Source: Flavobacteria bacterium BBFL7
GTDB lineage: Bacteria > Bacteroidota > Bacteroidia > Flavobacteriales > Flavobacteriaceae
Length of the DNA stretch: 64,000 bases
Reading direction: 5' to 3'
Assembly: GCA_000153385.1 (NCBI GenBank)
Contig: CH672374.1
Span: 1,862,544-1,926,543, forward strand
The position numbers and the translations under genes are program-made. Shown here in pieces: positions 1-26,052 of the stretch (position 1 is its first letter; the number at the start of each line of letters is the position of its first letter). The notes beneath the pieces are model-generated. The model did not search any database. It saw only the letters and a list, made by a program, of their open reading frames with translations, and was not told where the DNA came from.

Positions 1-690
1 CACTACTATAAGTTACCTGTTATAAGACATTTAAATGAGATCATATGGGCGAATGTATATTCTGACAGCATAAGAGGTTATAGTTTTTTAAATGACCTAT
101 CTCTTAATATCGGAAGATTTGCTTGTAATTATACTTTGTTGTACTTAACTCATAGGATAGTAAATAGTGTAAAACCGAAACGAGTATTAGAAATTGGTCT
201 AGGCGAATCGACAAAATTTTTATCCACATTTATAAATCATACTCTTGATGATTGTAAACATTTTGTTGTGGAACATAATAAAGAATGGATTTCATTTTTT
301 CCTTCATCTAGTCTTTATGATTGTACTGAAATTAAATACTTTGAAGTTGAGAAGTCTACTTTCAACGAAAAATATAACTCCTTAAATTATATAGGTTTTG
401 AGACCTTAAGTAGTTATGGAACCTACGAGGTTATAATTATTGATGGTCCACATGGAACAAAGAATTTTTCTAGAAATGATGTTCTTCAAAACCTTGAACA
501 CCTGATTGATTTCAACAATTTTACAATTGTTTTTGACGACACAAATCGTTCTGGAGAATTACAAACCTATAAAGCCATGTTGAAAAAGCTTAAAACCTTA
601 GGTGTCAAATTTGGGACAACTAGATATTATGGTAGTAAAATCGTTTCTATTATTTATTCTGATAACTACAAATATTTTGAAAGTCTTTAA
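1..690 (+). CDS. SAM-dependent methyltransferase-like protein, 5' truncated by window edge
   Basis: The reading frame is open from base 1, so the gene begins outside the window. An internal TTG at 136 is probably not the true start. The visible C-terminal part contains a Rossmann motif I, VLEIGLGESTKFL, followed by acidic strand ends (VVEHNKEW, VIIIDGPHG, IVFDDTNR). This pattern fits a class I SAM-binding fold. The substrate cannot be told. It sits immediately upstream of a flippase gene in a polysaccharide locus, so a sugar or glycan methyltransferase is a reasonable inference. Base composition is very AT-rich, like the next five genes. No terminator is obvious in the 117 nt before the flippase gene. 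Confidence 0.6.
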   Translation, partial: HYYKLPVIRHLNEIIWANVYSDSIRGYSFLNDLSLNIGRFACNYTLLYLTHRIVNSVKPKRVLEIGLGESTKFLSTFINHTLDDCKHFVVEHNKEWISFFPSSSLYDCTEIKYFEVEKSTFNEKYNSLNYIGFETLSSYGTYEVIIIDGPHGTKNFSRNDVLQNLEHLIDFNNFTIVFDDTNRSGELQTYKAMLKKLKTLGVKFGTTRYYGSKIVSIIYSDNYKYFESL

Positions 691-807
691 TGAATTATTT
701 AGTTAATTTGTCTCAATAATTTTAGTTTAAACGGCTTTTATTGGTGCATTATTAATTGGGAATTATTAAATTGAGTTTAGGTATTCTAAATACACTTGTT
801 TAATATT

Positions 808-2079
808 ATGATGCGAAAGCTTTCTAAAAAACTGTCTGAAGAAGAAAAAACAGTGGCTAAAAACTATGGTGCACTTATCGTTCTTCAAGGATTGAATTAC
901 TTATTACCATTACTCATCATTCCATTTTTAGAGCGACAGCTGGGGCTAGAAAAATTTGGTCTGGTAATGCTAGCACAGTATCTGATGGCATTTTGTGTCG
1001 CGGCAGCAGATTTTGGTTTTAATGTTACCGCAACAAGAGAAATTTCAATATTAAAAGCTGAAAAAGGAGATTATTCTACCATTTACTTTAAAGTTTTTTG
1101 GGCAAGAATGATTTTGCTTGTAGTTGTATTTATGCTATTAAACTTAGTCGTCTTTTTAGTACCTAGATTCACAGTAGAATGGGAGATTTACTTATTGAGT
1201 TATGGTGCAGTTATAGGTCAAATATTGTTACCTGATTGGTTTTTTCAAGGAATTGAAAAAATGAAGTTACTTACGATAGTAAATGTTTTAGCAAAACTAA
1301 TTTTCACGCTTTTATTATTTCTATTTATTTCGAATCCAGATGATTACACTTTTGTTCCGATTTTTAATTCTATTGGTTTTTTGACTGCTGGCTTAATTTC
1401 GTTTTTTCTAAGTTTAAAGTATGTAAAATGGCAATGGCCTAATTTTAAGGATTCTAAAGATTTTTATAATGAGAGCTTCCAGATTTTTATTTCCAATATA
1501 GCCTCGCAGTTGAGCAATGCTGCAAATGGGGTGGTATTAGGCTTTTTTGGTGGTGATGCAATTGTTGGTATTTTTAGTGCTTTTGATAAATTGATTATTG
1601 CAGCAAAAAAAATGTATCTTCCTTTTTATCAAGCGATGTATCCGTATTTTTCAAGGAAATCTTTTAATGAGAAATTAAAGATGATGAAGAAATTGATTCC
1701 TGTAATTACCATTGTAGGTATTATTGGATTTAGTATTATATTCCTGATGGGAGACTGGATTATTCAATCGCTATATAAAGATGATACTATTTATGAGAAC
1801 GTTTATCTATTCAAATGGATGGGATTGATAGCTTTTTTTACAGGCTTGAGCTTATTATTCCATTCTCTTTATGCTCCAGCAAGAAAACTATTTAATGACA
1901 GGATGAAGATGACTATAATTGCTGGTATATTTAATATTATTTTGAGTTTAATAATTGTTCCTATTTATGGTTTAAAAGGGACTGTGATATCAGTAATATG
2001 TACAGAATTTGTACTACTAGGAATTGCTGCTTTATTCTATTATAAGGACTTTAAAAAATCGCTATGGGTGAAAAGCTGA
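808..2079 (+). CDS. wzx: Wzx-like oligosaccharide flippase (MATE/MOP superfamily)
   Basis: The product is about 423 residues with roughly twelve hydrophobic segments, typical of polysaccharide flippases of the MOP superfamily that move lipid-linked repeat units across the inner membrane. The N-terminal stretch GALIVLQGLNYLLPLLIIPF and the following PFLERQLG match the conserved first helix of RfbX/Wzx proteins. I place the start at the ATG at 808 (another ATG at 811), because the TTG at 796 has no support. The 3' end overlaps the next gene by 16 nt, implying translational coupling. It is the first complete gene of the AT-rich block that also encodes a polymerase and a ligase, which supports the Wzx/Wzy pathway assignment. 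Confidence 0.85.
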   Translation: MMRKLSKKLSEEEKTVAKNYGALIVLQGLNYLLPLLIIPFLERQLGLEKFGLVMLAQYLMAFCVAAADFGFNVTATREISILKAEKGDYSTIYFKVFWARMILLVVVFMLLNLVVFLVPRFTVEWEIYLLSYGAVIGQILLPDWFFQGIEKMKLLTIVNVLAKLIFTLLLFLFISNPDDYTFVPIFNSIGFLTAGLISFFLSLKYVKWQWPNFKDSKDFYNESFQIFISNIASQLSNAANGVVLGFFGGDAIVGIFSAFDKLIIAAKKMYLPFYQAMYPYFSRKSFNEKLKMMKKLIPVITIVGIIGFSIIFLMGDWIIQSLYKDDTIYENVYLFKWMGLIAFFTGLSLLFHSLYAPARKLFNDRMKMTIIAGIFNIILSLIIVPIYGLKGTVISVICTEFVLLGIAALFYYKDFKKSLWVKS

Positions 2080-3131
2080 TTTTAATACAGACAGTCATAC
2101 CTGATTACAGATTGAAGTTTATCAATCAAATAAAAAAGGAACTAAAAACAGATTTTAAGACTGCTTGTGGCGAACGGTTTTTTGACCCAACGATTAAAAA
2201 ATCGAAAGGCTATGAGCCTGATTTTTTGTTGAAAAACAGATTTTTTTTAAACAATAAATTTTTATGGCAATCAGGTATATTAAATTATGTGTTTTCAAAT
2301 TCAATCCTCATTATAAGCTTGAACCCTAGGGTTTTATCAAATTGGTTTATTTTGATCATACGCAAATTAACGGGTCGTAAAACGCTGGTTTGGGGTCATG
2401 CTTGGCCTAAATCTGGAATGAACTCTAAATCTGATAAGTTGCGTCATATCATGAGAATGCTAGCTGATGAAATCATCGTCTATACAAACGGTCAAAAGAA
2501 AGAATTAGCTATAAAAATGCCCAATAAAGTCATCCATAGTGCACCCAATGCCTTATTATATAAAGAGGAAATGTCAAGTGAGCACTTTAAGGACCCTTGT
2601 AATATTATATTTGTAAGCAGGATGGTTGAAAACAAAAAGGCTATGTTACTTTTTTTGGCTTTCGAAAAAATAGTTAGCCAACTGCCAACAGATTCAAAAT
2701 TAATATTGATAGGTGATGGTCCAGAAAAAAAGCTTATCAAGGATCAAATTACTAAATCAGATTTAAAGGGTAGAATTATTTTGCCTGGTACAGTCGTGGA
2801 TAAAGTTCAATTAAATGAATATTATAAATCATCCTTAATAAGTGTGTCTCCTGGAAGAGTAGGTCTAGGGCTCACACAAAGCTTAGGTTATGGTGTACCC
2901 ATGATAATAGCTAAAAATGAATTACATGGACCTGAAGTTGAAGTGGCAGTCGAAGGTGTTAATTCTTATTTTTTTCAAGAAGATAATGTGGATGACCTTG
3001 CTTTAAAAATTTTAGAAGCTTTTAGAAATAGCGTAACAATATTAGACTCCAGAGAAAAACTTTCTTTAGATTGCAAAAACACATTTTCAATTGAAGTGAT
3101 GGCTACAACATTTATTAATTTACTTAAATAA
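2064..3131 (+). CDS. Glycosyltransferase, GT4-like (GT-B fold)
   Basis: This 355-residue protein has the C-terminal signature of GT-B retaining glycosyltransferases: IIFVSRMVENKKAMLLF, LILIGDGPEKKLI, and a late acceptor/donor loop SPGRVGLGLTQSLGYGVPMI. The usual EX7E is replaced by a GLGLTQSL arrangement, so the family assignment is approximate. It probably adds a sugar to a lipid-linked repeat unit on the cytoplasmic side. The ATG at 2064 lies inside the 3' end of the flippase gene (16-nt overlap). The nucleotide-sugar donor cannot be predicted. Confidence 0.75.
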   Translation: MGEKLILIQTVIPDYRLKFINQIKKELKTDFKTACGERFFDPTIKKSKGYEPDFLLKNRFFLNNKFLWQSGILNYVFSNSILIISLNPRVLSNWFILIIRKLTGRKTLVWGHAWPKSGMNSKSDKLRHIMRMLADEIIVYTNGQKKELAIKMPNKVIHSAPNALLYKEEMSSEHFKDPCNIIFVSRMVENKKAMLLFLAFEKIVSQLPTDSKLILIGDGPEKKLIKDQITKSDLKGRIILPGTVVDKVQLNEYYKSSLISVSPGRVGLGLTQSLGYGVPMIIAKNELHGPEVEVAVEGVNSYFFQEDNVDDLALKILEAFRNSVTILDSREKLSLDCKNTFSIEVMATTFINLLK

Positions 3132-3140
3132 AATCAATAA

Positions 3141-4556
3141 GTGTTATTAAGGAATTTTTTCATATTTATTTACCTGTCCATTACAGTATTTCTATTTGTG
3201 ACATTAGAAACCTCATTATCTCTATGGATGAGTTTTTTTGGAAATGCATTAATTCTTACATTCATTACTTATTACCATATTTTTATTGAACGTAGATACA
3301 GTCCTTTCATAAGCACTTATATAGTATTTAATTATTTGTTTTTTTTAGTAGCTCCATTGGCTCAAATCAGTGAGTTCAATATTATGGAAACACCAGCTTT
3401 TACTCATCATTTCCCTTTTACAGAGCTTACTTTTATTAAAACTAATGGACTTATTGCTACCTTTAATATTGTCTTTTTCCTTTTTTACGTAGCCTGTAAA
3501 GATTACATAAAAATTAAAAGGAAGAAACCTGTAAAGAAGGCATATTCGCTATCTAGTATTTTCATCATCCTAATCTTAAGTGTATTAGTACTTATCATGA
3601 ATTATGACTTCTTCTTAGATGAACTTTCTAGGCCTAGTTGGTTAACTTCTACATATAGTGTTAGCTATCTTCTCATTGTTAAAAAGGTATTATTCTTAAT
3701 GCCACTAGCAGGAGCGATTCTATGTATAGATTATTATAAAAATTCAAAAATTGATACACAAAAATGGATTCTAGCAACGGCTATGTTGTTTTTCCTTATC
3801 GCGTTAGTATTACTCTTCAAAAACCCTTTAACAGAGAAAAGAAATGCACTAGGACCTATTTATCTTTTATTCTTCTTCTTATTTGTTCCTAAACTACTCA
3901 ACAGTAATGTGAAGTCAACACTTCTCTTATTTGTGGTAATGATTATAGGCTTTCCACTTTCTCAATTTCTTACGCATATTGATTATGGTTTTGATGAGAT
4001 ATTGAGTAACCCTAGTTTATTGTTTGCAAAAAACCAATTGAGTGAAGGTTATATGTCATTAAACTATGACGCTTTTATAAATATAGGAGTAGTGATGGAG
4101 CATGTAGAGTTTGATGGATTTTCTTACGGTTACCAACTTTTGAGTGCATTCTTGTTTTTCGTTCCTAGAAGTTTATGGGTTGCAAAACCCGATTCATCAG
4201 GACTAATAGTAGGGAATCATGTGATAGATCATTATGATTTCCATTTTGCAAACCTATCTAATCCTTATATTGCTGAAGGCTATATGAATTTCGGTATCAT
4301 AGGAGTTATTCTTATGGCTATAGTACTCGCATTGAGTATAGTATATTTCTTAACTTGGCTTAATAGTTCTAATCTATTTAAAAAATCAATCGCCTTTTAC
4401 TATGCGATGCATTTGTTGTTCTTGTTAAGAGGAGATTTTACAAATGGATTTGCTTACTTTATAGGAACATTTATAGGTCTATATCTATTACCTAAAGTTA
4501 TTTTAGCGTTTGTAAATTTATTTTTCTACAAAAAAGTATGGGTGCAAAAATCTTAA
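3141..4556 (+). CDS. wzy: Wzy-like O-antigen/oligosaccharide repeat-unit polymerase
   Basis: The product is 471 residues and very hydrophobic, with about a dozen predicted membrane segments and one larger periplasmic loop in the second half (around VPRSLWVAKPDSSG and the following histidine-rich stretch). That topology, together with the motif ANLSNPYIAEGYMNFGIIG, fits repeat-unit polymerases, which have little sequence conservation. Translation starts at GTG 3141, 9 nt after the preceding stop; no ATG is close. The 3' end overlaps the next gene by 19 nt. The assignment is by topology and context, so specificity is unknown. Confidence 0.72.
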   Translation: MLLRNFFIFIYLSITVFLFVTLETSLSLWMSFFGNALILTFITYYHIFIERRYSPFISTYIVFNYLFFLVAPLAQISEFNIMETPAFTHHFPFTELTFIKTNGLIATFNIVFFLFYVACKDYIKIKRKKPVKKAYSLSSIFIILILSVLVLIMNYDFFLDELSRPSWLTSTYSVSYLLIVKKVLFLMPLAGAILCIDYYKNSKIDTQKWILATAMLFFLIALVLLFKNPLTEKRNALGPIYLLFFFLFVPKLLNSNVKSTLLLFVVMIIGFPLSQFLTHIDYGFDEILSNPSLLFAKNQLSEGYMSLNYDAFINIGVVMEHVEFDGFSYGYQLLSAFLFFVPRSLWVAKPDSSGLIVGNHVIDHYDFHFANLSNPYIAEGYMNFGIIGVILMAIVLALSIVYFLTWLNSSNLFKKSIAFYYAMHLLFLLRGDFTNGFAYFIGTFIGLYLLPKVILAFVNLFFYKKVWVQKS

Positions 4557-5818
4557 TAGAGAAACATAGTAACACTATTTTATGGCTTTTAACCGCTATG
4601 ATGTTTGCGTTTCCTGTAATTCCTTCTCCTGTGAGGCCTGTTTGTATCGTTCTATTTGTGATAGGTTCTATATGGAGTAGTTACTATTGTAAGCAACAAT
4701 TTAGATGGAGATATTTTCTTTTAAATGCTTCTGTATTTATAGTTTATTTAATAAGTCTTACTTATTCTGACGACTTAAGTTATGGATTTAGAAAAATAGA
4801 AACTGGAGCGTCACTTATAGTATTCCCATTGATCTTTTCTCTTATTTCTATTAAGCATCTCAATTATATTTTTGAGAATATCCATAAACTTATGTGGATT
4901 TTCATAACTACTGTTCTTATCGCTAATGTTGCTTTTTTTATAAAATTTTATACTCATTATAATTTTGTAGACTCAGTACAACACTTTCCAAATATTATTA
5001 GATCAGATATTTATGGATGGAATATTCATCCTATTTATCTAAGCATGCACGTAGCTATTGCAATAATTTTCTCATTATTTCTTATTCATAAAGGATTGTC
5101 TCTTAGAAATATGTGCATCCTATTGTTAATGGATTTAGTACTCATTCTATTTTTACTCATAATGATTAAAAAAGGCCCTATTTTAGGATTAGTGATGATC
5201 ATGTCTTTACTGGTCGTTCTTTTTAAAAATAGAAGCCTTTGGATTTTTTATGGCTCAATAGTTACGATAGTAATTGGTGTGATCATTTTTCACCCTAAGG
5301 TCAATAGTAAATTCTCTGAATTACTAGAGATTAATAAAAACAATCATGACGAATTGACTTCAACTAACATAAGGATGAAGATTTATGATTGTGCGGTAGA
5401 TATCACATCTGACGCTGGGATATTTGGCTTTGGATTAGGAGATGGAAAAAATCAACTTGTAAATTGTTATGTAGAAAAAGAAGCTTTTGCACTTTCAGAC
5501 AGTCAGTATAATTCTCATAATCAGTATTTAGGTTTTATACTCAACATAGGATACTTAGGCCTTATTTTCTTCTTATTATTTGTAGGAATACGTTTAATTA
5601 AGGCATATTCAAATAAGAATTATCTCGCGCTTGCTGTTATTTTGTTCTATTGTATCGTAATGTTTTCAGAAAATATTTTAGAACGTGAACAAGGAGTTAT
5701 TTTCTTTAGCTTTTTTGCAAACTTATTATTTTTAAAGAACAGTAAATACTTGATTGAAAGCACTAAGAAAAAACAAGTGGAGAATGTTTTTGAAGAACTT
5801 AATGTAGGTAAGAACTAA
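4538..5818 (+). CDS. O-antigen ligase family protein (Wzy_C domain)
   Basis: This is a 426-residue polytopic membrane protein with about ten to twelve helices. The segment SDAGIFGFGLGDGKNQL and, further on, SHNQYLGFILNIGYLGLIFF form the conserved periplasmic loop plus following helix of the O-antigen ligase (WaaL/Wzy_C) superfamily, including the SHN motif. Members either join polymerised glycan to lipid A-core or polymerise glycan themselves. With a separate Wzy-like protein next to it, ligase is the more likely role. The ATG lies within the end of the upstream gene, and the next gene follows after 2 nt, so all three are probably co-translated. Confidence 0.75.
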   Translation: MGAKILIEKHSNTILWLLTAMMFAFPVIPSPVRPVCIVLFVIGSIWSSYYCKQQFRWRYFLLNASVFIVYLISLTYSDDLSYGFRKIETGASLIVFPLIFSLISIKHLNYIFENIHKLMWIFITTVLIANVAFFIKFYTHYNFVDSVQHFPNIIRSDIYGWNIHPIYLSMHVAIAIIFSLFLIHKGLSLRNMCILLLMDLVLILFLLIMIKKGPILGLVMIMSLLVVLFKNRSLWIFYGSIVTIVIGVIIFHPKVNSKFSELLEINKNNHDELTSTNIRMKIYDCAVDITSDAGIFGFGLGDGKNQLVNCYVEKEAFALSDSQYNSHNQYLGFILNIGYLGLIFFLLFVGIRLIKAYSNKNYLALAVILFYCIVMFSENILEREQGVIFFSFFANLLFLKNSKYLIESTKKKQVENVFEELNVGKN

Positions 5819-5820
5819 TT

Positions 5821-6909
5821 ATGTTAACTCATAAAAATAAAGTCTTGATCATAGGACCTTTTCCCGATCCTATAACCGGTTTAAGTATTTCAAATGCTGT
5901 ATTATTGCGAGGACTTAGTGCAAATGGTCAACATGTAGATTTTATCAACACAGAGCACGCTACTAACGTCTCTTCAGAGCTTGGGAAATTTAGTTTTAGC
6001 AAACTTAACTTCTTATTTTTTTATTGTAAGATCTATAAAATCCTTAAGAACGATATCATTTATATGACACCAGGACAGACCTTTTTTGGTGTTATGAAGT
6101 ATTTGCCTTTTGTCTTAACTGCAAAGCTTTTTAAAAGAAAATCATTATTCCATTTACATGGGAATAGTGTTAAAGACGTTTATGCGAGCCTTAAAGGGTT
6201 AAAGAGCAAGCTCTATTCTAGCACAATCAAGTGTTTTGATGAATCAATAGTTCTTTCACAATCGCTGAAAGTCAATATGCAACCTTTTTTCAAAGATGCT
6301 GATATTCACGTTGAGCATAACTTTATTCAAGAAGATATCGCAATATCCCTTAGTGAATTAGAAAGTAAGAAGGACTATAAAGAGATTAAATTAATCTTTA
6401 TAAGCAATCTACTACCTGAAAAAGGAATTAATAATTTGATAGATGCTTTATTAAAATTACAATCATTAGACATTAATTTTAAAATTAAAATAGCAGGTAA
6501 CATTCCTGTTAATAACACAAACATTAGTGACAAAATTGCTCAATTAAAAAGCGGTGAATACTTAGGTGTTGTAAGTGGAGAAAAGAAAAGAGATTTACTT
6601 TTATGGGGAAACGTTTTTTGTCTTCCCACACAACTAGAAGAAGGACAACCTATCTCTATACTAGAAGCAATGACTTACGGACATTTTATTCTTGCGACCA
6701 GAACACCTGGGATAAGCGATATTATACATGACAAAAACGGTGCATTGCTAGAAAACTATGATGTTGCTTCTATTATGAAACAATTACAGCTATTAACACT
6801 TAATCAGGTTGAGCAAAAAGGTATATTCAATAGTAGATTTGCCAATAATAGATTTACAGAAGCTTCCTATGTAGAAAGAATATCTAATCTACTGTCAACA
6901 AACGCTTAG
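5821..6909 (+). CDS. Glycosyltransferase family 4 (GT-B)
   Basis: The 362-residue protein starts with a typical GT4 N-terminal strand and glycine loop (VLIIGPFPDPITGLSIS) and contains FHLHGNSVKDVY. The donor-binding half has FISNLLPEKGINNLIDAL and the GT4 EX7E region CLPTQLEEGQPISILEAMTYG. It is a retaining glycosyltransferase acting on the lipid-linked glycan at the inner face of the membrane. It starts 2 nt after the ligase stop. It is the last gene of the AT-rich block; after it the composition changes and a 43-nt gap with a possible promoter separates the next gene. Confidence 0.82.
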   Translation: MLTHKNKVLIIGPFPDPITGLSISNAVLLRGLSANGQHVDFINTEHATNVSSELGKFSFSKLNFLFFYCKIYKILKNDIIYMTPGQTFFGVMKYLPFVLTAKLFKRKSLFHLHGNSVKDVYASLKGLKSKLYSSTIKCFDESIVLSQSLKVNMQPFFKDADIHVEHNFIQEDIAISLSELESKKDYKEIKLIFISNLLPEKGINNLIDALLKLQSLDINFKIKIAGNIPVNNTNISDKIAQLKSGEYLGVVSGEKKRDLLLWGNVFCLPTQLEEGQPISILEAMTYGHFILATRTPGISDIIHDKNGALLENYDVASIMKQLQLLTLNQVEQKGIFNSRFANNRFTEASYVERISNLLSTNA

Positions 6910-6952
6910 ATTAGTTAAAATAATTACCTTGCAATCTTAACACTACAGCTTT

Positions 6953-7498
6953 TTGAAAAACTACCAGCAACTAGACCAGTTTGAATTACCGCCCAACTTC
7001 CGTGGTCGTGGAGCGGTTACTGTGCAATTATGGTGGTTAGTACAAAGTACACTTTTTGCTTGGTCACCGCAATTTATGTACGGCTGGCGCAGATTTTTAT
7101 TACGTTTATTCGGAGCTCAAATAGGTAGAAAAGTGATCGTTAGACCTACGGTTAGAACACAATTCCCATGGAAAGTATCCATAGGCGATTACAGCTGGAT
7201 AGGTGATGATGTGGTGCTTTACAGTCTAGGTGAAATAGAAATAGGGGCAAACGTAGTGATTTCTCAAAAATCATACATCTGTACAGGAACACATGATCCA
7301 CAAGCCATAAAGTTTGATATCTATGGCCATAAAATCACCATAGAAGATCAATGCTGGATTGCAACAGAGGTTTATGTAGCACCAGGAATAACTATAGGCC
7401 GCGGCACATTAGTAGGCGCACGCAGCAGCGTTTTTAAAAACCTTCCAGCAGGTAAAGTATGTCTAGGAAGTCCTGCACAAGTGATTAAAGATAGATAA
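6953..7498 (+). CDS. wcaF: WcaF-like colanic acid-type acetyltransferase (left-handed beta-helix)
   Basis: This 181-residue protein is a hexapeptide-repeat acetyltransferase: IGRKVIVRPTVRTQFPWKVSIGDYSWIGD is followed by further [LIV]GxxxxI repeats (IEIGANVVISQKS, VAPGITIGRGTLVGA). The TGTHDPQ segment holds the catalytic histidine expected of the WcaF/NodL group. It probably O-acetylates a sugar of the exopolysaccharide using acetyl-CoA. The start is TTG at 6953; no upstream ATG is in frame. A -7-like TACCTTG lies at 6925-6931, about 21 nt upstream, so this may begin a second transcription unit after the AT-rich block. It is followed by the WcaI-like gene after 2 nt. Confidence 0.82.
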   Translation: MKNYQQLDQFELPPNFRGRGAVTVQLWWLVQSTLFAWSPQFMYGWRRFLLRLFGAQIGRKVIVRPTVRTQFPWKVSIGDYSWIGDDVVLYSLGEIEIGANVVISQKSYICTGTHDPQAIKFDIYGHKITIEDQCWIATEVYVAPGITIGRGTLVGARSSVFKNLPAGKVCLGSPAQVIKDR

Positions 7499-7500
7499 AC

Positions 7501-8718
7501 TTGAAAGGAAAACACATCACATTCATAGGGCTCAACTATGCGCCAGAAGACACAGCTATAGGTCTATATTCTACTCAAATGGTAGAAGCACTCACCAGTG
7601 CTGGCGCGACCGTAAATGTCGTTACAGCATTTCCCTATTATCCACAGTGGAAAATAGCGCAAGCCTATCAAGACAAGCCTAGTTATCTTCAAGAAGAACA
7701 TAAAGGAGCAAAACTTTACCGTTATAAGCAGTACGTACCAGAGACGCCTACTTTTTTAAAACGCATCATTCATATTCTTAGCTTTACAAAAGGAAGTTTT
7801 TTCAATCTTAGAAAAATTAAAGAAGCAGATCTAGTCATTTCTATTATTCCGTTTACAGCCAGTGCATGGCTTGCAGGATATCATGCAAGAAGTCACAAAG
7901 CCAAAAGCTGGATTCACATTCAGGATTTTGAATTTGACGCGGCACTGCAATCTGGATTATCTAGTGGTGGAAAAAAGTTGATTTTCAAGTTTCTTTTTGG
8001 TCTTGAAAAGCGCATTTTAAATAAGGCAAACACGATTAGTACCATAAGTCATAATATGATTGCAAAGTTGCAATCCAAAACCAGCCAGCCACATTATTAT
8101 TTACCTAACTGGATTGATGAAAATCAAGTAAATCCAGAGACGGCAAAGCAGCATTCTTACTTACGCAGTGATAAATTTAAATTGCTTTACAGTGGTAATG
8201 TAGGTGATAAGCAAGATTGGGATTTTTTCTCCGCTTTCGCGAAAGCGTTACCACAACAACATTATGATATTATCATCGTAGGTGCTGGAGCAAAATACCA
8301 GCAGTTAAAGGATACTACAAACCAAGAAAATATTCATTTTTACGATCCAGTTCCTTTTGAAGAACTATCAGATTTACTGTGTAGTGCTGATGCGCATTTT
8401 TTGTTTCAAAAAACCGAAGTGCTGGATACTGTAATGCCGTCTAAACTGTTAGGCATGATGGCTAGCGAGAAGCCTTCTCTAGTTCTAGGAAATGCAAAGT
8501 CTGAAGTAAAACAGGTGATGGAACTTGCAAATGCAGGTTGCTATCTCACTACTGCAAATGTTGAAACTGCTGTCAATCAATTAGAAAATTGGCGATTAAA
8601 TCAAGATGAGACCTTGCAAATAGGTAAGGACGCAAGATGTTATGTAACCCAACACTTTGCACGCAAACCTATATTGGACAATTGGGTAGATCAACTCACA
8701 GAATTACTGGACAGCTAG
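7501..8718 (+). CDS. wcaI: WcaI/WbuB-like glycosyltransferase family 4
   Basis: The 405-residue sequence opens with ITFIGLNYAPEDTAIGLYS, the hallmark of WcaI-type colanic acid fucosyltransferases, followed by VNVVTAFPYYPQWKI. The C-terminal half contains the donor-site strand FKLLYSGNVGDKQDWD and HFLFQKTEVLDTVMPSKLLGMMAS, as in WbuB/WcaI. The start is TTG at 7501 because no ATG is close. It pairs with the upstream WcaF-like gene as in colanic acid loci. One exact copy of the 16-bp palindrome lies at 8232-8247 inside the gene and is read as SAFAKAL. The specific sugar is not deducible. Confidence 0.82.
   Translation: MKGKHITFIGLNYAPEDTAIGLYSTQMVEALTSAGATVNVVTAFPYYPQWKIAQAYQDKPSYLQEEHKGAKLYRYKQYVPETPTFLKRIIHILSFTKGSFFNLRKIKEADLVISIIPFTASAWLAGYHARSHKAKSWIHIQDFEFDAALQSGLSSGGKKLIFKFLFGLEKRILNKANTISTISHNMIAKLQSKTSQPHYYLPNWIDENQVNPETAKQHSYLRSDKFKLLYSGNVGDKQDWDFFSAFAKALPQQHYDIIIVGAGAKYQQLKDTTNQENIHFYDPVPFEELSDLLCSADAHFLFQKTEVLDTVMPSKLLGMMASEKPSLVLGNAKSEVKQVMELANAGCYLTTANVETAVNQLENWRLNQDETLQIGKDARCYVTQHFARKPILDNWVDQLTELLDS
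8232..8247. repeat. 16-bp palindrome, exact copy
   Basis: CGCTTTCGCGAAAGCG, inside the WcaI-like gene, read as SAFAKAL. It is the first copy in the window; none is present in the AT-rich block before it. Confidence 0.95.
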
Positions 8719-8776
8719 TATACGGTGCTACCAGCCATTTTCCCTATATTTACAGCTCTAACCACAATTATACTCG

Positions 8777-9766
8777 ATGAAGAAAAGAGTTCTTATTACT
8801 GGCGCAGCTGGCTTTTTAGGTTCGCATTTATGTGATCGCTTTATAAAAGAAGGTTATCGCGTGGTAGCAATGGATAATCTGATTACAGGAGATCTTAAAA
8901 ATATAGAACACCTTTTTCCATTAGAAGAATTTGAGTTTTATCATACTGACGTGAGTAATTATGTGCACGTCGCTGGTGAGTTAGATTACATTTTACATTT
9001 TGCAAGTCCAGCAAGCCCAATAGATTATTTAAAAATTCCTATCCAAACGTTGAAAGTAGGATCCTTAGGAACGCATAATTTACTAGGCCTTGCCAAAGCT
9101 AAAAACGCACGTATACTTATCGCATCCACCAGTGAGATCTATGGAGATCCATTAGTTCATCCGCAAAGTGAAGATTACTATGGAAACGTAAATACCATTG
9201 GACCTCGTGGTGTATATGATGAGGCAAAACGGTTCCAAGAATCCATAACCATGGCATACCATCGTTTTCACGGTTTAGAAACACGCATCGTGCGTATTTT
9301 TAACACCTATGGACCTAGAATGCGATTGAATGATGGTCGCGTTATTCCTGCATTTATGGGACAGGCATTGCGTGGAGAAGATATCACCGTTTTTGGAGAT
9401 GGAAAACAGACGCGTTCTTTTTGTTATGTAGACGATCAAGTAGAAGGAATTTATAGATTACTCTTGAGTGATTACAGTGATCCAGTAAACATTGGTAATC
9501 CGCATGAGATTACCATAGGTGATTTTGCAAAAGAAATAATAGAACTTACTGGTACTGATCAGAAAGTGGTTTATAAAGAATTACCACAAGATGATCCTTT
9601 AAAAAGAAAGCCAGATATTTCACTAGCTAAAGAATTACTTAACTGGGAACCTAGAGTCAATAGGGAAGAAGGAATGCGCATTACATTTGAATATTTTAAA
9701 ACATTATCTAAAGAAGATTTAGAAAAACGTGAGCACAAAGACTTTACAAAACATATCAGACGATAG
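8777..9766 (+). CDS. uxs: UDP-glucuronate decarboxylase-like extended SDR (UXS family)
   Basis: A 329-residue extended short-chain dehydrogenase with the NAD-binding glycine motif GAAGFLGSH at residues 9-17. The substrate half carries LHFASPASP, the active-site YDEAKR motif, the NTYGPRMR strand and [14 protein letters not shown]. These match UDP-xylose synthases, which convert UDP-glucuronate to UDP-xylose with NAD+, supplying a nucleotide sugar to this locus. Related dTDP-glucose dehydratases lack the ASPASP loop. A near-consensus -7 box TATATTTA lies at 8745-8752, 24 nt before the ATG, so it may have its own promoter. The 3' end overlaps the next gene by 38 nt. Confidence 0.88.
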
Positions 9767-11117
9767 TATTTCCTATCGTGATGGTCGTTACTCGGGACTG
9801 ATCAGACCATTTCTGTATCTGACAGATTTGTGTCTGATCATTGCTGGTGCGGGATATTTTTTTGACAGTACTTTTGACTTGCTCACTTTTGGAATTTTTA
9901 TAGGAATATGTTGGGTAATTGTTTCAATGCAATTTGATTTTTATCAAATACATCGTAATACTAAATTCATCACGTTGATGTTGCGTATCGCAAAACAATC
10001 GGTGTTTTTTACTTTTATAGTTTTCGCATTTTTTGGCTACTATTATCAGCTGGATAGAGATTCTGTTTTTATATTTAAATATATAGGCGCTACAATGGCC
10101 GCTATCGCTACCATTAAGGTGAGTATCTTTTTCTTGTTTAGAAACTATCGCAAGGTATTAGGCGGTAACCTAAGACATATTGCGATTTTAGGGGCAAATA
10201 AAGACACAGAACAGCTCAAGAACTTCTTTGCAAAGCGTCCTGATTATGGATACCGACTCAAAAACCTGTTTGATACTAACGACTCTTTTAATATTCAAGA
10301 GTTTACAGATTGGGTGATTGAAAATAATGTCGACGAAATCTTTTGTTCGGTACCGGCATTAACTAATGAACAGCTAGTGGAACTCACAGATTTTGCAGAT
10401 AATAATCTACGTACATTAAAGTTTCTCCCAGACACAAGTGCGGTGTTAAGTAAACAGTTGCACTATGAATATTATGGGAAAACACCCATATTATCTTTAA
10501 GACAAATACCACTAGATGATCCTGTAAATAAACTGGCAAAAAGATCGTTTGACATAGCATTCTCATTACTTATAATTATAGGTGTTCTATCGTGGTTAAT
10601 TCCTCTAGTAGCCATTATTATTAAGTTAGAATCAAAAGGTCCAGTATTTTTTAAACAAAAACGTAATGGTCTCGATTATAATGAGTTTACCTGTTACAAG
10701 TTTCGTTCTATGGTACCTAATAAGACCGCAGATCTTCATCAAGTAACTCGTGGAGATCATCGCATAACTAAAATAGGGAAGTTCCTGCGCAAGACTAGTA
10801 TAGATGAGCTGCCACAATTTTTCAATGTATTTCTAGGCGATATGAGTGTTGTAGGACCACGACCACACATGGTCAGTCACACACATATGTATGCAGAACG
10901 CATCGATAAATTTATGGTCCGTCATTTTGTAAAACCAGGCATTACAGGACTTGCACAAGTAAGCGGTTATCGTGGCGAGGTAGAGACAGAAGAAGATATT
11001 ATAGGTCGTGTGCGCAATGATATTTTCTATATAGAAAACTGGAGTACAGTGATGGACTTAAAGATTATTTTTAAAACTGTGGCAAACGTATTTATGGGTG
11101 AAGAAAAAGCCTATTAG
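9729..11117 (+). CDS. wcaJ: Polyprenyl glycosylphosphotransferase (WbaP/WcaJ family), initiating enzyme
   Basis: This 462-residue protein has four N-terminal membrane helices, a cytoplasmic CoA-binding-like Rossmann region ([14 protein letters not shown]), a fifth membrane segment and the bacterial sugar transferase domain. Visible signatures are [52 protein letters not shown] and [15 protein letters not shown]. The enzyme transfers a hexose-1-phosphate to undecaprenyl phosphate and starts repeat-unit assembly. The start is GTG at 9729, within the uxs gene (38-nt overlap). The next gene begins directly after its stop, indicating one operon. Confidence 0.93.
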
Positions 11118-11891
11118 ATGGAACTTGTATCTGTCATTATACCTACGTATAACAGTGTTTTAACTCTTAAAGAAGCGCTGGACAGCATCATCTATCAATC
11201 ATACAGACCTATAGAAATTATCACAATTGATGACGCAAGTAATGATGATAGTCTCGCTTTTGCGAAAAAATATGCACTACAACACAGCACTAAAGATGTA
11301 CAGTTCGTTACTCTAGGTAATGACGAGAACGCTGGTGCAGGAATAAGCAGGAACAAAGGAGTTGAAAAAGCATCAGGTACCTACATCGCTTTTCTAGATG
11401 CAGATGATATATGGAAACCAGGAAAGCTTACGACGCAAATCGACGCTATGAAATCTCAAAATGCTACCGTATGTTATGGAGCTTATGAGATTTTTAAAAC
11501 CACTCCAGATCAGCCTATTGCAGTTCATAAAGTGTTTGAAAAACTGACTTATGATAAGTTGCATAAAACTAATTATCTAGGCAATCTTACAGGTATTTAT
11601 AACGCTGCTGTATTAGGTAAGATAGCCATTCCATCATTGCGCAAAAGACAAGATTGGGCCATGTGGTTAGATGTTCTTAAAAAAGCAGAATTTGCTATAG
11701 GAATTCAAGAGCCTATTGCTAGTTATCGACTAAGCGATGGACTGTCTGCAAATAAAATAGAGTTGATTAAGCATAACTATGCCGTTTATAGAAAACACCT
11801 AGGTTACTCAGCGATGAAGAGCTATTGGAATATGATGTTGTTTTTTTATGAGCAGTTTCTTGTAAAAAAAATGCTAATACAAAAGCTGTAA
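11118..11891 (+). CDS. Glycosyltransferase family 2 (GT-A)
   Basis: The 257-residue protein carries the GT2 N-terminus VSVIIPTYNS, the nucleotide-binding EIITIDDASNDDS, and the DXD-type metal site AFLDADDIWKPGKL. A short C-terminal region follows, with RKRQDWAMWLDVLKK resembling the Q/RxxRW-like acceptor region. It likely transfers one sugar to the lipid-linked unit made by the preceding transferase. Its ATG directly abuts the upstream stop. The downstream neighbour is on the other strand, so this ends the + strand polysaccharide operon; no clear hairpin terminator is visible in the 26-nt gap. Confidence 0.88.
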   Translation: MELVSVIIPTYNSVLTLKEALDSIIYQSYRPIEIITIDDASNDDSLAFAKKYALQHSTKDVQFVTLGNDENAGAGISRNKGVEKASGTYIAFLDADDIWKPGKLTTQIDAMKSQNATVCYGAYEIFKTTPDQPIAVHKVFEKLTYDKLHKTNYLGNLTGIYNAAVLGKIAIPSLRKRQDWAMWLDVLKKAEFAIGIQEPIASYRLSDGLSANKIELIKHNYAVYRKHLGYSAMKSYWNMMLFFYEQFLVKKMLIQKL

Positions 11892-11917
11892 AATGGAAAT
11901 TTATAATTAACTAAAGT

Positions 11918-13219
11918 TTACCGATCTACCTCACAAATAAATTGCTTTAACTTCCCACGATTACTACGATCTAAGGAATCTAATCGTGTAAAAGCGACGG
12001 CTAAATCAGGTTCAAGATATTCATCCATAGCTTTTTGGACTTTAGATTTTTGAGAACCATTCATTTCCTGCGAACTCACATATTGAATTTCAAAAGACGC
12101 TTCTGTTTTTTGAATGACTATAAATTCTAGTATGTTGACGTCTTCATTAATAATCGATTTTGTAACATAATAAAAGGTCAATCCAGGAACGACTTTACCA
12201 CTAGGTAATCTAGCGATGTCACTGGTACGACCTTGTAGGTTTTCTAGAATTCTTGTACCATTTTCTAGTGTTTTTAAACTACCTAAATCGCCTATTTCAT
12301 AACGTATCACTGGATGTGCTAGGTTATATAAATCTGTAACGAGTATACGACCTATAGTGCCATCTGTAACTGGTTGATTAGTATCATCTACAATTTCAAT
12401 AAATAGATTTTGCTGGTTCAGAACAAATTCACCTTGTGGATTTTCCATAGCCATTAATCCTACCTCGCTAGCACCATATTCATTTACGACAGGAATACCT
12501 ATCCATTTTTCGAGGAGCTTGCGATCATCTGCAAAAAGCATTTCACTGGTTACGATACATATTTTTAAACTTGGGCAGTAGGTTTTGAGAGTTGTGCCTT
12601 TCTCACGACAGTATTTTGCTAGTAGCACGATACTGCTAGTATAACCGTTGAGGTATTCGTATTCGCTTTCGCGAAAGCGTGATACATACTTCTCTAGCAT
12701 CGCATTATTTAAATTAAAAATAGGAAAGCGCTTGCGATTACTCACATAGTCTTTAAGGAGTTCTACATATTTACCTTTTCCACTCAATGGAATCCCATAA
12801 AAACGAGCCTGTAAAGACGTGTTGAGGTCAATGTCATGTTCATTATAGGCATGATGAAATGCAGCCCAAGTAATCGCGTGTGCAAATTTATCTTTTGCAT
12901 AAGTAAAGGGATGACCGCTAGAACCACTGGTTTTTCCTTTAAAAACGTTTTTTGAGCTGTAGTTGTTACTTAATCGCTCATGAAGTGGTTGTTGTAAATC
13001 CCTTTTAGTAAGTACTGGCAGCTTTGCCCAGTCAGTAGATTTGTTGTCTAATAGATTTTTATAGAAGTTGTTATGCTTTAAATGATGTTGTACAATTGCC
13101 TTCTTACGTTGATCTATAGATTCATCAGTGCTATTTAATAATTGTTTAAAACGAGATTTGGCTTCCTGAATAGGGAATCCTTGCCATCTTAATATGTTGT
13201 CAAAAAGTTGTAGAGGCAT
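11918..13219 (-). CDS. CapK/PaaK-like adenylate-forming enzyme (phenylacetate-CoA ligase family)
   Basis: The protein has the AMP-binding signature GKTSGSSGHPFTY, then NEYGASEVGLMAME and a DLGSLKTLENGTR/LQGRTSD region, matching the CapK/F390-synthetase branch of phenylacetate-CoA ligases often found in capsule loci. It probably adenylates a carboxylate used to decorate the glycan, but the substrate is unknown. The frame is open back to a GTG at 13276. I prefer the ATG at 13219, because the longer version would run through the purD -7 box at 13256-13263, and family members typically begin just before the FDxxLRxQGFPI-like stretch. An exact 16-bp palindrome (12664-12679) is read here as SRFRES. 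Confidence 0.78.
   Translation of the reverse strand: MPLQLFDNILRWQGFPIQEAKSRFKQLLNSTDESIDQRKKAIVQHHLKHNNFYKNLLDNKSTDWAKLPVLTKRDLQQPLHERLSNNYSSKNVFKGKTSGSSGHPFTYAKDKFAHAITWAAFHHAYNEHDIDLNTSLQARFYGIPLSGKGKYVELLKDYVSNRKRFPIFNLNNAMLEKYVSRFRESEYEYLNGYTSSIVLLAKYCREKGTTLKTYCPSLKICIVTSEMLFADDRKLLEKWIGIPVVNEYGASEVGLMAMENPQGEFVLNQQNLFIEIVDDTNQPVTDGTIGRILVTDLYNLAHPVIRYEIGDLGSLKTLENGTRILENLQGRTSDIARLPSGKVVPGLTFYYVTKSIINEDVNILEFIVIQKTEASFEIQYVSSQEMNGSQKSKVQKAMDEYLEPDLAVAFTRLDSLDRSNRGKLKQFICEVDR
12664..12679. repeat. 16-bp palindrome, exact copy
   Basis: CGCTTTCGCGAAAGCG, inside the CapK-like gene (minus strand), read as SRFRES. Confidence 0.95.
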
Positions 13220-13282
13220 TTTGAATTTTAAAGCAATATTGAGCAAGGTAAAACTTATTTTTGCATTCTTAAACACAACCTA

Positions 13283-14554
13283 ATGAACGTCCTTATTTTA
13301 GGAAGCGGTGGCCGCGAGCACGCTTTTGCATATTCAATTTCAAAAAGTACTTTACTTTCTCAACTTTTTGTTGCTCCAGGAAATGCTGGTACGGCTCAAA
13401 TCGCGACTAATGTTGCGTTAGGCGTGACTGACTTTCCAGCGATCAAAGAATTTGTTCTTGAGAATAATGTGCAAATGGTAGTAGTAGGACCAGAAGCACC
13501 GCTGGTAGAAGGAATCTATGATTACTTTCAAGAAGACGCTGCTCTTAAAGATGTCAACGTCATAGGACCATCTAAACAAGCTGCCATGCTTGAAGGTTCT
13601 AAAGAGTTTGCAAAAGAATTTATGGAACGCAACGAAGTTCCTACGGCAGCCTATAAAAGTTTTACAGCCACATCACTTAAAGAAGGAATGGCGTTTATTG
13701 ATTCATTAAAGCCACCATTTGTGCTAAAAGCAGATGGACTCGCTGGTGGAAAAGGTGTGCTTATCATTTCTGATGCTCAAGAGGCAAAGGAGTCTCTTGA
13801 AGAAATGCTGGTAGGTGGAAAATTTGGTGCAGCATCTAATAAAGTTGTGATTGAAGAATTTCTAGACGGAATCGAAATGAGCGTTTTTGTTCTTACAGAT
13901 GGCGACTCTTATAAAATCTTGCCTACTGCAAAGGATTATAAACGTATAGGTGAAGGCGACACAGGTTTAAACACTGGTGGAATGGGTGCGGTTTCTCCAG
14001 TACCATTTGCAGATGATGTGCTGATGCAAAAAATTGAGCAAAAAGTTGTGATTCCTACTATAGAAGGATTTAAAAAGGAAAACTTAGTCTACAAAGGATT
14101 TGTTTTTATCGGTCTAATGATTGTAGATCAAGAACCGCTTGTTATAGAATATAACGTACGTATGGGTGATCCAGAAACTGAAGCTGTTCTTCCACGTATA
14201 TCTAGTGATTTATTAAGTCACTTAAATGCTTTTGCGACAACTAGCTTAGATCAAGAAAATTTAGTGATTGATGAGCGCAGTGCAACAACAGTAATGTGTG
14301 TTGCAGGTGGCTATCCTGAAGCTTATGATAAAGGAATGGAGATTATAGGACTAGATGAGGTAGTAGACAGTATTGTTTTTCACGCAGGTACGACTGTAAA
14401 AGATGGTAAAGTAGTTACTAATGGTGGACGTGTTATGACAGTAACTTCATACGGAACAGATTTCAATGAGGCACTAAAAAAATCCTACCAGAATGTAGAT
14501 AAACTACACTTTGATAGGATGTATTATAGAACCGATATAGGTTTTGACCTATAG
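13283..14554 (+). CDS. purD: Phosphoribosylamine--glycine ligase
   Basis: This is the full-length 423-residue GAR synthetase, which joins phosphoribosylamine and glycine using ATP in purine synthesis. The N-terminus has MNVLILGSGGREHAFA, the ATP-grasp region has KADGLAGGKGVLI, and the conserved DYKR..EGDTGLNTGGMGA and YNVRMGDPETEA motifs are intact. It is divergently arranged with the CapK-like gene. A -7 element TATTTTTG at 13256-13263 lies 19 nt before the ATG. The next gene is convergent, and the gap of 10 nt shows no hairpin. Nothing is unusual in the protein. Confidence 0.97.
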   Translation: MNVLILGSGGREHAFAYSISKSTLLSQLFVAPGNAGTAQIATNVALGVTDFPAIKEFVLENNVQMVVVGPEAPLVEGIYDYFQEDAALKDVNVIGPSKQAAMLEGSKEFAKEFMERNEVPTAAYKSFTATSLKEGMAFIDSLKPPFVLKADGLAGGKGVLIISDAQEAKESLEEMLVGGKFGAASNKVVIEEFLDGIEMSVFVLTDGDSYKILPTAKDYKRIGEGDTGLNTGGMGAVSPVPFADDVLMQKIEQKVVIPTIEGFKKENLVYKGFVFIGLMIVDQEPLVIEYNVRMGDPETEAVLPRISSDLLSHLNAFATTSLDQENLVIDERSATTVMCVAGGYPEAYDKGMEIIGLDEVVDSIVFHAGTTVKDGKVVTNGGRVMTVTSYGTDFNEALKKSYQNVDKLHFDRMYYRTDIGFDL

Positions 14555-14564
14555 CGGTTGGGAT

Positions 14565-14807
14565 TTATTTCTGATTTTTTCCTAAGAAAGAATGAGCAGT
14601 TTGTGTGTGGTCTTCCTCACCATTTGCTTCAAAAATGCGTAGTTGCTTAATCCAGTAACCTAAAGCTACTATTAAAATTGCAATACAAATCCATGAAACG
14701 GTATTTGCTAACCACCAGTTTTCTAACTCTAACTCAGCTAGGGCTGAAAATGGAGCTAATAATATCTCTTCAAAAAAGTATGCGATTCCTTCAAAAAATT
14801 CTTTCAT
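14565..14807 (-). CDS. Small membrane protein, DUF6341-like
   Basis: An 80-residue protein with one clear transmembrane segment (about residues 33-52) preceded by an amphipathic aromatic N-terminus (FFEGIAYFFEEILLAPF) and a charged tail ending in AHSFLGKN. I recall this family as a short flavobacterial protein annotated DUF6341, but I cannot check it here. Its function is unknown. It is divergent from the polytopic membrane protein at 14854, which in my recollection is also a lineage-restricted DUF (6427), so the two may work together in the inner membrane. The assignment as a real gene rests on length, clean start and composition. Confidence 0.7.
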   Translation of the reverse strand: MKEFFEGIAYFFEEILLAPFSALAELELENWWLANTVSWICIAILIVALGYWIKQLRIFEANGEEDHTQTAHSFLGKNQK

Positions 14808-14853
14808 TACTGTAAATTGCTTTATACTGATGCAAAAATAGTCAAAAAACCAT

Positions 14854-15765
14854 ATGCTTTCTACTTTTTTTAGTACTTCTAGACCTGTCCACTATTTGAT
14901 GGTGTTTATTATAGTGGTAGCAGCGGTATTATCCTCGTTTTTATTGGATTCACAAATCCAATGGTGGGAACTATTAGCCATACTGGTTTTATCGGGAAGC
15001 CTTGCACTAGTTGAATTTATTGTATCTAAAAATGATTTAACTTCGTCCTCAAGTTATACTTTATGGTGCGCGACCATGTTCTCATTAATGTACTTAACGT
15101 TTAAGGTACCATTACATATATTAGCAGCATTATTCTTTATTTTATTAGCTACTCGTCGGCTGTTAAGTCTTAAAACAGGTCATTCGATCATTAAAAAGAT
15201 TTTTGACGCGACCTTCTGGATTGCTATAGCTAGTATTTTTTATCATTGGAGCGCATTATTATATATTTTAGTTTTTGTTTCTATCTTCTTATATGTACGC
15301 AACGATTTTAGACATTGGGCAACACCATTTATTGCTTTAGGTTGTGTATGGGTTTTATTATTTACCTATGATTATGTCTGGGATAACCACGTCATTTCTT
15401 CGTTTTGGGACTCATATAAAACTTCATATTTATGGGAGTTTACAGTATTTCAAGGTCAAGAAATCATCTTGTTTTCTCTGATTATTTTTTCTGTAATTGG
15501 ACTATTTATTTACTTGACAAAGCTCATTGATATACAGCAAAGTGTGCGACCACGATTTACTATTATGACATTTATGGGTTTATGTGGTATTGCTTTATTT
15601 TTAATCGATTTTGAATCATTCTGTAATGGTGGATATTTATTTCTCATATTACCACTAAGTGTATTTATCGCAAGAGCAGTTCACGCAATAAATCATAAAA
15701 TATTTAAAGAAATTCTTCTTTGGATTCCCTTTTTACTACTGTTGGGCAGTTTTTTACTCTATTAA
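14854..15765 (+). CDS. Polytopic membrane protein, DUF6427-like
   Basis: The 303-residue product has about nine to ten hydrophobic helices and almost no soluble domain. The start MLSTFFSTSRPVHYLMVF resembles a flavobacterial family that I remember as DUF6427. No catalytic motif can be seen. It is divergently oriented from the small membrane protein at 14565-14807, with 46 nt between the start codons, so both promoters must overlap there. The role is unknown. Confidence 0.7.
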   Translation: MLSTFFSTSRPVHYLMVFIIVVAAVLSSFLLDSQIQWWELLAILVLSGSLALVEFIVSKNDLTSSSSYTLWCATMFSLMYLTFKVPLHILAALFFILLATRRLLSLKTGHSIIKKIFDATFWIAIASIFYHWSALLYILVFVSIFLYVRNDFRHWATPFIALGCVWVLLFTYDYVWDNHVISSFWDSYKTSYLWEFTVFQGQEIILFSLIIFSVIGLFIYLTKLIDIQQSVRPRFTIMTFMGLCGIALFLIDFESFCNGGYLFLILPLSVFIARAVHAINHKIFKEILLWIPFLLLLGSFLLY

Positions 15766-17460: not shown

Positions 17461-17471
17461 GTAACTGCATT

Positions 17472-17774
17472 TTATTCCTTCCCAAAACTATACTCACGTT
17501 CCACTTTACAAATGCGCACGTGATACCATTCATACCAATCAGATTTACCTAAGCGTTGCGCCATTTGATGATCCACTTGCTGTTTCCATTGGGCTATGGC
17601 TTTTAGGGAATCCCAGTAAGAAATAGTAATTCCTATTTCACTACAAGCAGTTTCATGACTTCTATAACCTGATTGTTGTTGTGCTAGATCTTCCATTAAA
17701 ACTGCCATAACATCATATTCAGGAATATTTTTCTTTTTTAAAGAGCTAAAAATTACGGCGTAGTAAGGCTTCAT
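17472..17774 (-). CDS. ABM-like (antibiotic biosynthesis monooxygenase fold) protein
   Basis: A 100-residue single-domain protein of the dimeric alpha/beta barrel type. It has YYAVIFSSLKKK, then a helix with MEDLAQQQSGYRSHETAC, and GITISYWDSLKAIAQWK, the pattern of ABM/YbjC-like proteins in which W and H residues line a small cavity. The actual substrate is unknown; many members are heme- or quinone-related or detoxifying. It stands alone between the convergent GT9 gene and the alpha-2-macroglobulin gene. The start is the ATG at 17774. Confidence 0.75.
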   Translation of the reverse strand: MKPYYAVIFSSLKKKNIPEYDVMAVLMEDLAQQQSGYRSHETACSEIGITISYWDSLKAIAQWKQQVDHQMAQRLGKSDWYEWYHVRICKVEREYSFGKE

Positions 17775-17801
17775 GCTTTAAGTAATAATATGCATTCAAC
17801 A

Positions 17802-17842
17802 GGCTCAGGCTGACATAAATAACTCTATTGTCGAACTGAGCT
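17802..17842. repeat. REP-like imperfect inverted repeat between genes
   Basis: The left arm GGCTCAGGCTGAC (17802-17814) and right arm GTCGAACTGAGCT (17830-17842) can form an imperfect hairpin with GCTCAG pairing to CTGAGC at the base and GAC to GTC near the loop. It resembles the short GTCGAACTGAGC-type intergenic elements I remember from Bacteroidota genomes. It lies between the start of the ABM gene and the end of the alpha-2-macroglobulin gene, both on the minus strand, and may act as a weak terminator for the latter. Confidence 0.45.
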
Positions 17843-17864
17843 TACTGAAGTTAAGTTGTAATAC

Positions 17865-26030: not shown

Positions 26031-26052
26031 TTATTTAAAAGATAATATTTCA

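Follow-up and report, generated by a model that had tools for sequence, protein, structure and literature searches.

The window analyzed here is a 64,000-nucleotide stretch of contig CH672374.1 of Flavobacteria bacterium BBFL7 (G000:C2:1862544-1926543), whose genome comprises 3.10 Mb in seven contigs. At its start lies a block of six genes. Very probably, this block is the part that varies between strains in the middle of a Wzx/Wzy-dependent locus for a surface polysaccharide of Nonlabens, being swapped by recombination within that genus and AT-rich through the composition of its proteins. This reading is carried by the gene content of the block, its composition at the codon positions, flanks that are shared around a divergent centre, one tract near-identical to that of a relative, and the conflicting trees of two block genes. 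Since the wcaI gene of the window shares 97% identity with its counterpart in Nonlabens ulvanivorans PLR, the source organism is itself a Nonlabens near that species. Genomes are given by code where they have to be told apart: G000 is the window's own, G011 is N. ulvanivorans PLR, G001 is N. ulvanivorans JCM 19298, and the other codes among the first 23 are further Nonlabens.

The block extends from position -20 to about 6845–6909, where position 0 is the base preceding base 1 of the window and negative values lie upstream of it. All of its genes are on the plus strand. The first encodes a methyltransferase-like protein of 236 aa (the motif was judged by eye), for which neither the in-window part in Pfam nor the whole protein in NCBIfam gave a match. 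It starts at -20 and occupies positions 1–690; a previous reading of the DNA from its letters (hereafter, the sequence-only reading) had called it truncated, but only the window edge cuts it. The wzx flippase follows (808–2079; PF01943, 156.9 bits against a cut-off of 28.2), then the GT4 glycosyltransferase GT_A (2064–3131; PF00534/PF13692), the O-antigen polymerase wzy (3141–4556; PF14296, 32.4 bits against a cut-off of 26.6, over the end of the profile only, 381–462 of 468), a Wzy_C membrane protein that is a candidate O-antigen ligase or second polymerase (4538–5818; PF04932, 59.4 bits against a cut-off of 31.7) and, as the last gene, a second GT4 glycosyltransferase, GT_B (5821–6909; PF00534/PF13692). 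A PDB sequence search with the flippase and the Wzy_C protein gave no match. Three components of a Wzx/Wzy-dependent locus are thus present, namely Wzx (PF01943), Wzy (PF14296) and the initiating transferase WcaJ (TIGR03023).

Shared genes lie on either side, and the block is therefore in the middle of the locus and not at its front, where the sequence-only reading had placed it. Upstream of the window are rmlB, rmlA, rmlC, rmlD, two more open reading frames (ORFs), gmd and fcl, all named from their translations; in Pfam, gmd belongs to PF16363, and fcl only to the general epimerase family PF01370. The right flank, also on the plus strand, consists of a wcaF-type acetyltransferase (6953–7498; NF007797 above its cut-off, TIGR04008 below), a wcaI-type glycosyltransferase (7501–8718; NF007640 above its cut-off), an SDR sugar-nucleotide enzyme previously named Uxs (8777–9766; PF01370, with none reaching its cut-off among the 25 of 41 NCBIfam matches listed), and the initiating sugar-phosphate transferase wcaJ (9729–11117; TIGR03023, 423.1 bits against a cut-off of 410.75). 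A candidate chain-length determinant (Wzz/Wzc) at L006:9923-10960 was named by eye and had no Pfam match.

Synteny was compared in the 15 of 22 congeners whose wcaI match reached at least 55%. The remaining seven (G008, G012, G013, G014, G017, G019, and G021) had no such match, and two of them, G012 and G021, are 77–78% complete. The right border of the block is wcaI instead of wcaF in G003, G004, and G020, and its left end in G015 and G010 is the end of the DNA examined. Both wcaF and wcaI are found at 12 of the 15 congeneric loci, while uxs and wcaJ come next in only nine (within the DNA examined), so the earlier view of the whole downstream set as native stands for the first pair and less so for the second. 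Among the congeners with an intact gene (14), wcaI identity ranges from 61 to 97%, and wcaF is 94–96% identical in G011, G016, and G001.

The contrast between flanks and centre is best seen in G016. Its flank genes are 93–99% identical to those of the window (gmd 99%, with 59% of the gene covered; fcl 96%, wcaF 95%, wcaI 96%, uxs 97%, wcaJ 98%, and the GT2 gene 93%), and its block genes only 29–86% (wzx 63%, GT_A 48%, wzy 86%, Wzy_C 52%, and GT_B 29% over 45% of its length); the methyltransferase-like gene was not found at the G016 locus. Taken in 300-bp steps, identity is 84–96% through fcl and returns to 93% at 6901, and across most of the block there is either no match or one of 67–79%, with short pieces reaching 92% and wzy being intermediate at 79–89%. 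The right breakpoint, judged by eye from the alignment, is at about 6845, within the last ~20 codons of GT_B, and the final ~60 nt of this gene, being common with G016, were counted as right flank. The expectation that relatives share the right flank and differ before it, as the variable part of such a locus should, is thus borne out in G016.

Shared flanks and a divergent centre could also be due to fast evolution of the block under diversifying selection, with the flanks constrained and no exchange at all. Under this explanation, the same kinds of membrane protein would be expected at the locus, as is the case in most congeners, and wzy, whose copies from four close genomes form one clade, could still fit it. 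It cannot account for the comparison with G011, as wzx and GT_A are near-identical over 2.7 kb between genomes that otherwise are ~5–6% apart. In this tract, at 417–3113, only a single base of 2697 differs; the rest of the alignment has 547 differences in ~8567 columns (6.4%, gap columns counted), and the next longest identical tract is of 238 bp. Such near-identity against 6.4% elsewhere indicates a recent exchange. At the protein level, wzx and GT_A are each 100% identical to G011 and wzy is 89% identical (96% in G001), and the alignment is a mosaic, with 78–88% identity at 3301–4200, in wzy, and 92–100% in the adjoining steps.

The identity of the flippase is, furthermore, out of step with relatedness: wzx is nearer in G003 (74%) than in G016 (63%), and for wcaI the order is reversed (64% and 96%, respectively). 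Trees were built under LG+G4, with no mixture model, and the clade to be tested, G000+G011+G016+G001, was picked beforehand from the flank identities. It was rejected for wzx (p-AU 7.8e-7) and for Wzy_C (p-AU 3e-4), while in the wcaI tree G000, G011, and G016 are together with support of 100/98. The wcaI of G001 was left out of this tree, and out of the wcaI palindrome alignment discussed below, because the gene is in two overlapping frames, owing to a frameshift or to an assembly error. For wzx and Wzy_C, the trees refute evolution in place; as it also leaves the differing gene content unexplained, an account with no exchange whatsoever is scarcely credible.

Where the exchanged genes come from can be judged from the nearest relatives of the block proteins. 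Among 199 genomes of the family (the window's own, one Nonlabens that gave no match, and 197 from other genera), the best flippase outside Nonlabens is only 44% identical, and the donor pool is thus mainly Nonlabens itself, as far as sampled. The methyltransferase-like gene is present at the same locus in G011 (96%) and in G003 and G020 (52–56%), and the 19 remaining congeners gave no match at E≤1e-20 (3 of 22 positive). At the same threshold, four genomes from other genera had a match, with 37–41% identity, in a search that covered 197 genomes in total.

The sequence-only reading had also described the block as AT-rich, and it is. In 1-kb steps, GC is 0.285–0.329 over 1–7000 (seven steps) and 0.352–0.402 over 7001–15000 (eight steps), and the block as a whole has a GC of 0.303, compared with a mean of 0.349 (sd 0.016, minimum 0.292) in 432 overlapping 6.9-kb windows from 16 sampled 20-kb stretches. 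A GC as low as this was found in 10 of the 432, and is therefore rare and not unique. The deviation resides in the first two codon positions. Against a background of 689 genes, taken from 36 sampled stretches and 144 kb around the locus, GC at codon positions 1 and 2 (GC12) is 0.31–0.35 in the six block genes (mean 0.404), while GC at the third position (GC3) is 0.230–0.277, at the 34th–80th percentile and close to the genome mean of 0.248. Because GC12 is low while GC3 is ordinary for the genome, the AT-richness of the block is a matter of amino-acid composition and not of foreign-looking DNA; the residues F, Y, M, I, N, and K make up 37–42% of the block proteins. Part of the sharpness of the step at 6910 comes from the other side, as fcl, wcaF, wcaI, and wcaJ have high GC3 (92nd–96th percentile).

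The same dip recurs in relatives: in all 15 genomes compared (G000 and 14 congeners), wzx, wzy, and Wzy_C have a lower GC12 than the flanking genes, and block GC3 tracks flank GC3 among them (r=0.79, p=0.0004). In G003 and G007, whose flanks are richer in GC, the lag of the block in GC3 is largest (0.32–0.33 against 0.46–0.47 in the flanks), which would fit an import from AT-richer congeners. The compositional outliers near the locus are, instead, the two ORFs between rmlD and gmd, orf315 and orf743 (315 and 743 aa; L006:14450-17656, window -5550 to -2344), with GC3 at the 5th–6th percentile and a synonymous-codon G-ratio at the 88th and 98th. The second carries a C-terminal secretion-system sorting domain (PF18962) and has only partial matches in congeners, of 30–44% identity; in G001, G004, G009, G011, and G022, rmlD and gmd are spaced too tightly for the two ORFs to fit.

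AT-richness and a missing palindrome had suggested foreign or recent DNA to the sequence-only reading, that is, a recent import from a distant and more AT-rich donor whose composition, lack of palindromes included, the block would have kept. The overall GC (0.303 against 0.349), the absence of the palindrome and the low percentiles of GC12 are what such an import would give, as is a G-ratio toward the upper end in five of the six genes. A recent import should, however, deviate first at the third positions, and these are ordinary; close homologues of the block genes are at the same locus in congeners, the nearest flippase in the 197 genomes of other genera is at 44%, and the high GC3 of the surrounding genes exaggerates the contrast. 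We therefore consider a recent import from a distant donor very unlikely, and the composition, with its dip in 15 of 15 loci, does not serve as a mark of foreign DNA. The proposed check by codon usage, in which uniformity was to speak against a distinct block, gave a divided answer, GC3 being unexceptional and the G-ratio spreading from the 2nd to the 95th percentile, with all but one of the six genes at or above the 71st and none beyond the 95th (fcl, wcaF, and wcaJ are at the 89th–90th).

Several observations weigh against exchange within the genus as the full account of the block. The clade of wzy unites G000, G011, G016, and G001 with support of 99/99.7, which means that not all block genes have been swapped between distant lineages. 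In composition, block GC12 is low even within its class (2nd–9th percentile, soluble genes included), the G-ratio leans high in most block genes, and all but one of the 15 genomes have a lower GC3 in the block than in the flanks, by a mean of 0.05 (14 of 15); an old AT-rich origin, with third positions adjusted since, may be behind these values. The genome collection, in turn, holds one genome per species-level group and thus no within-species sample, and we are aware of no published structure of a polysaccharide from these strains.

The 16-bp palindrome CGCTTTCGCGAAAGCG is indeed missing from 1–6909, as the sequence-only reading had noted. The nearest copy to the right is at 8232–8247, in wcaI codon 244, and with up to two mismatches allowed no copy lies between this one and that at -451, in fcl codon 212, a gap of 8683 bp. 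At the same stringency, however, the window contains a gap of 11.5 kb, at 16550–28091 (with one three-mismatch copy inside). Gaps of at least 8683 bp account for 7 of 136 in the sampled DNA when copies with up to one mismatch are counted and for 10 of 89 between exact copies, the ends of the stretches shortening gaps in both counts; in a listing of exact copies on contig 1, which runs from its start to 475 of its 692 kb, they account for 17 of 68. This listing agreed with all 10 of the sampled stretches that fall there. Because equally long gaps exist elsewhere, and because AT-rich and membrane genes carry fewer copies, the gap over the block is weak evidence.

In the window's own genome, two copies were counted in 53.0 kb of genes with GC12 below 0.35, four in 74.3 kb of membrane genes and six in 55.9 kb of soluble genes with GC12 below 0.36, compared with 107 in the 737 kb of all background genes. 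At the low-GC12, membrane or AT-rich soluble rates, ~0.3–0.5 copies would be expected in the block, and ~1.0 at the overall gene rate. Over 16 Nonlabens loci, our own included (the block of G010 being only 70 bp), the blocks contain eight copies in 114,177 bp and the flanks 69 in 207,810 bp. Six of the eight block copies could be placed in ORFs: two in GT_A- or GT_B-like genes, and four in a 350-aa protein judged by eye to be a putative glycosyltransferase. Absence of the palindrome is thus no rule for the block, yet the block is poorer in it than the flanks. Composition accounts for part of this depletion, chiefly in the membrane genes, and the genus-wide ratio exceeds the effect of composition. 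The proposed use of palindrome density as a marker of acquired DNA finds no support, and either "AT-rich" or "variable" may be the cause of the depletion.

Palindrome-free, AT-rich stretches also occur elsewhere in this genome. Two of them, L153 (G000:C2:1-20000, GC 0.324) and L155 (G000:C2:118000-130000, GC 0.318), contain small ORFs in the same direction with direct repeats between them, including a 300-nt repeat present 10 times in L153, and one of the ORFs is a reverse transcriptase (PF00078). From this arrangement, they look like putative gene-cassette arrays.

The palindrome itself is more unusual than the exchange. With up to one mismatch allowed, every one of the 23 Nonlabens genomes searched has 362–897 copies, while the exact sequence was found in only 17 of 147 genomes from other genera of the family, with 1–12 copies each; among the genomes searched, it is abundant only in Nonlabens. 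In the window's genome, the copies are evenly spaced: in the sampled DNA, one of 136 gaps is shorter than 1500 bp (677 bp), compared with a mean of 38 under random placement, and the coefficient of variation of the gaps, 0.44, is lower than in all of 1000 random sets (minimum 0.70). Of the 173 sampled copies, 66 fall outside ORFs of at least 120 aa, in DNA that amounts to ~120 kb.

Some of these sites are strongly conserved. That at wcaI codon 244 is retained, with up to one mismatch, at 16 of 16 loci and down to 61% protein identity (G010 does not appear in the palindrome-codon listing of wcaI loci), and is the most conserved of the 1200 16-bp windows of the gene (0.987, mean 0.736). The palindrome at rmlD codon 215 behaves similarly (rank 4 of 819; lost in G004), and that at fcl codon 212 is unremarkable (rank 385 of 1023; lost in G004 and G009). 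This pattern suggests that, at some of the sites, the DNA sequence as such is under selection. Uptake sequences mark self-DNA in other bacteria, and the palindrome might likewise be a mark of self-DNA or of recombination, with palindrome-poor blocks travelling as passengers between copies such as those at -451 in fcl and 8232 in wcaI and exchange being thereby biased to the genus; we regard this idea as a long shot. Literature searches found no Flavobacteria paper for the core string of the palindrome, judging by the listing, and nothing for "highly iterated palindrome" in Flavobacteri; those returned for Nonlabens and palindrome were not about such a motif, judging by titles and the openings of abstracts.

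In the other genera, the copies listed mostly gather in one region of the genome (two places in G145 and G117), often with recurrent spacings of 933 and ~2446–2481 bp. One such region, L160 (G120), is 86% identical to L163/L164 (G095) over 19 kb and 79% identical to L167 (G122) over 5.5 kb, and its genes include one for an efflux pump (PF00873); no match to L160 was seen in L165, from G131. The region resembles a mobile one that originated in Nonlabens or was resident there for a long time.

The 43-bp intergenic stretch before wcaF (6910–6952, plus strand) had been proposed as both a break and the site of a new promoter. The break lies instead at about 6845, and the stretch belongs to the conserved right flank, being aligned in G016, G011, G001, and G005; a promoter within it is possible. 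The flavobacterial (Bacteroidetes) -7 motif is TAnnTTTG, and an exact copy is located 28–30 bases upstream of wcaF at five of 13 loci (G002, G007, G009, G010, and G018); the other eight, the window's among them, have no exact motif, and the window's own copy, TACCTTGC, is one base short of it. As the motif is no commoner in the window than by chance (68 observed, 92 expected), a single match weighs little, and its recurrent position at five of 13 loci weighs more.

In the mechanism that we propose for the exchange within Nonlabens, the common sugar nucleotides would be made by the shared flank genes (rml, gmd, and fcl in the left flank and the SDR gene in the other), wcaJ in the right flank would initiate the repeat unit, and the block genes would supply what is strain-specific, namely the glycosyltransferases, the methyltransferase-like protein, the flippase, the polymerase and the ligase-type membrane protein. 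Homologous recombination would then replace the whole or a part of the block with one from a pool internal to the genus, with crossovers within the block or in the homology offered by the shared flanks, and the swap would probably alter the sugar structure of what may be an O-antigen or a capsule. The high content of F, Y, M, I, N, and K in membrane proteins and sugar transferases requires codon positions 1 and 2 to be AT-rich, and this composition probably also limits the space for a GC-rich palindrome.

With this, Nonlabens gains a defined variable surface-polysaccharide locus, which could serve for strain typing and may bear on phage range. A literature search on Nonlabens and O-antigen yielded one paper only, which by its title concerns Lutibacter (capsule was not searched for). 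Enterobacterial O-antigen clusters have low GC. DNA that is AT-rich and motif-free need not be foreign, and only the third codon positions and the comparison with relatives discriminate between the two.

The Nonlabens block is of the same kind as the exchanged surface-polysaccharide loci known from many bacteria. The polysaccharide locus of Flavobacterium psychrophilum, of the same family, is conserved except for a membrane gene with similarity to polymerases or ligases, which is swapped between strains and linked to serotype, recombination being concluded there, too, from a conflict between trees (PMC5601056). The two loci are alike in their conserved rmlA, rmlB, and transferases and in the replacement of a multipass gene with a PF14296 or O-antigen-ligase-like domain; they differ in that, in F. 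psychrophilum, chiefly one gene is substituted and its link to serotype comes from serology, whereas in Nonlabens most of a 7-kb block varies and no serological work came to light. The enterobacterial cps loci lie between galF and gnd/ugd and undergo gene transfer, and that study saw no link of a gene's position to how often it is gained or lost (PMC7305143). There, as in Nonlabens, shared flanks define the locus, and alleles or genes are exchanged by homologous recombination, aided by the co-location of sugar-specific genes, although the flanking genes are others and the phylum is a different one.

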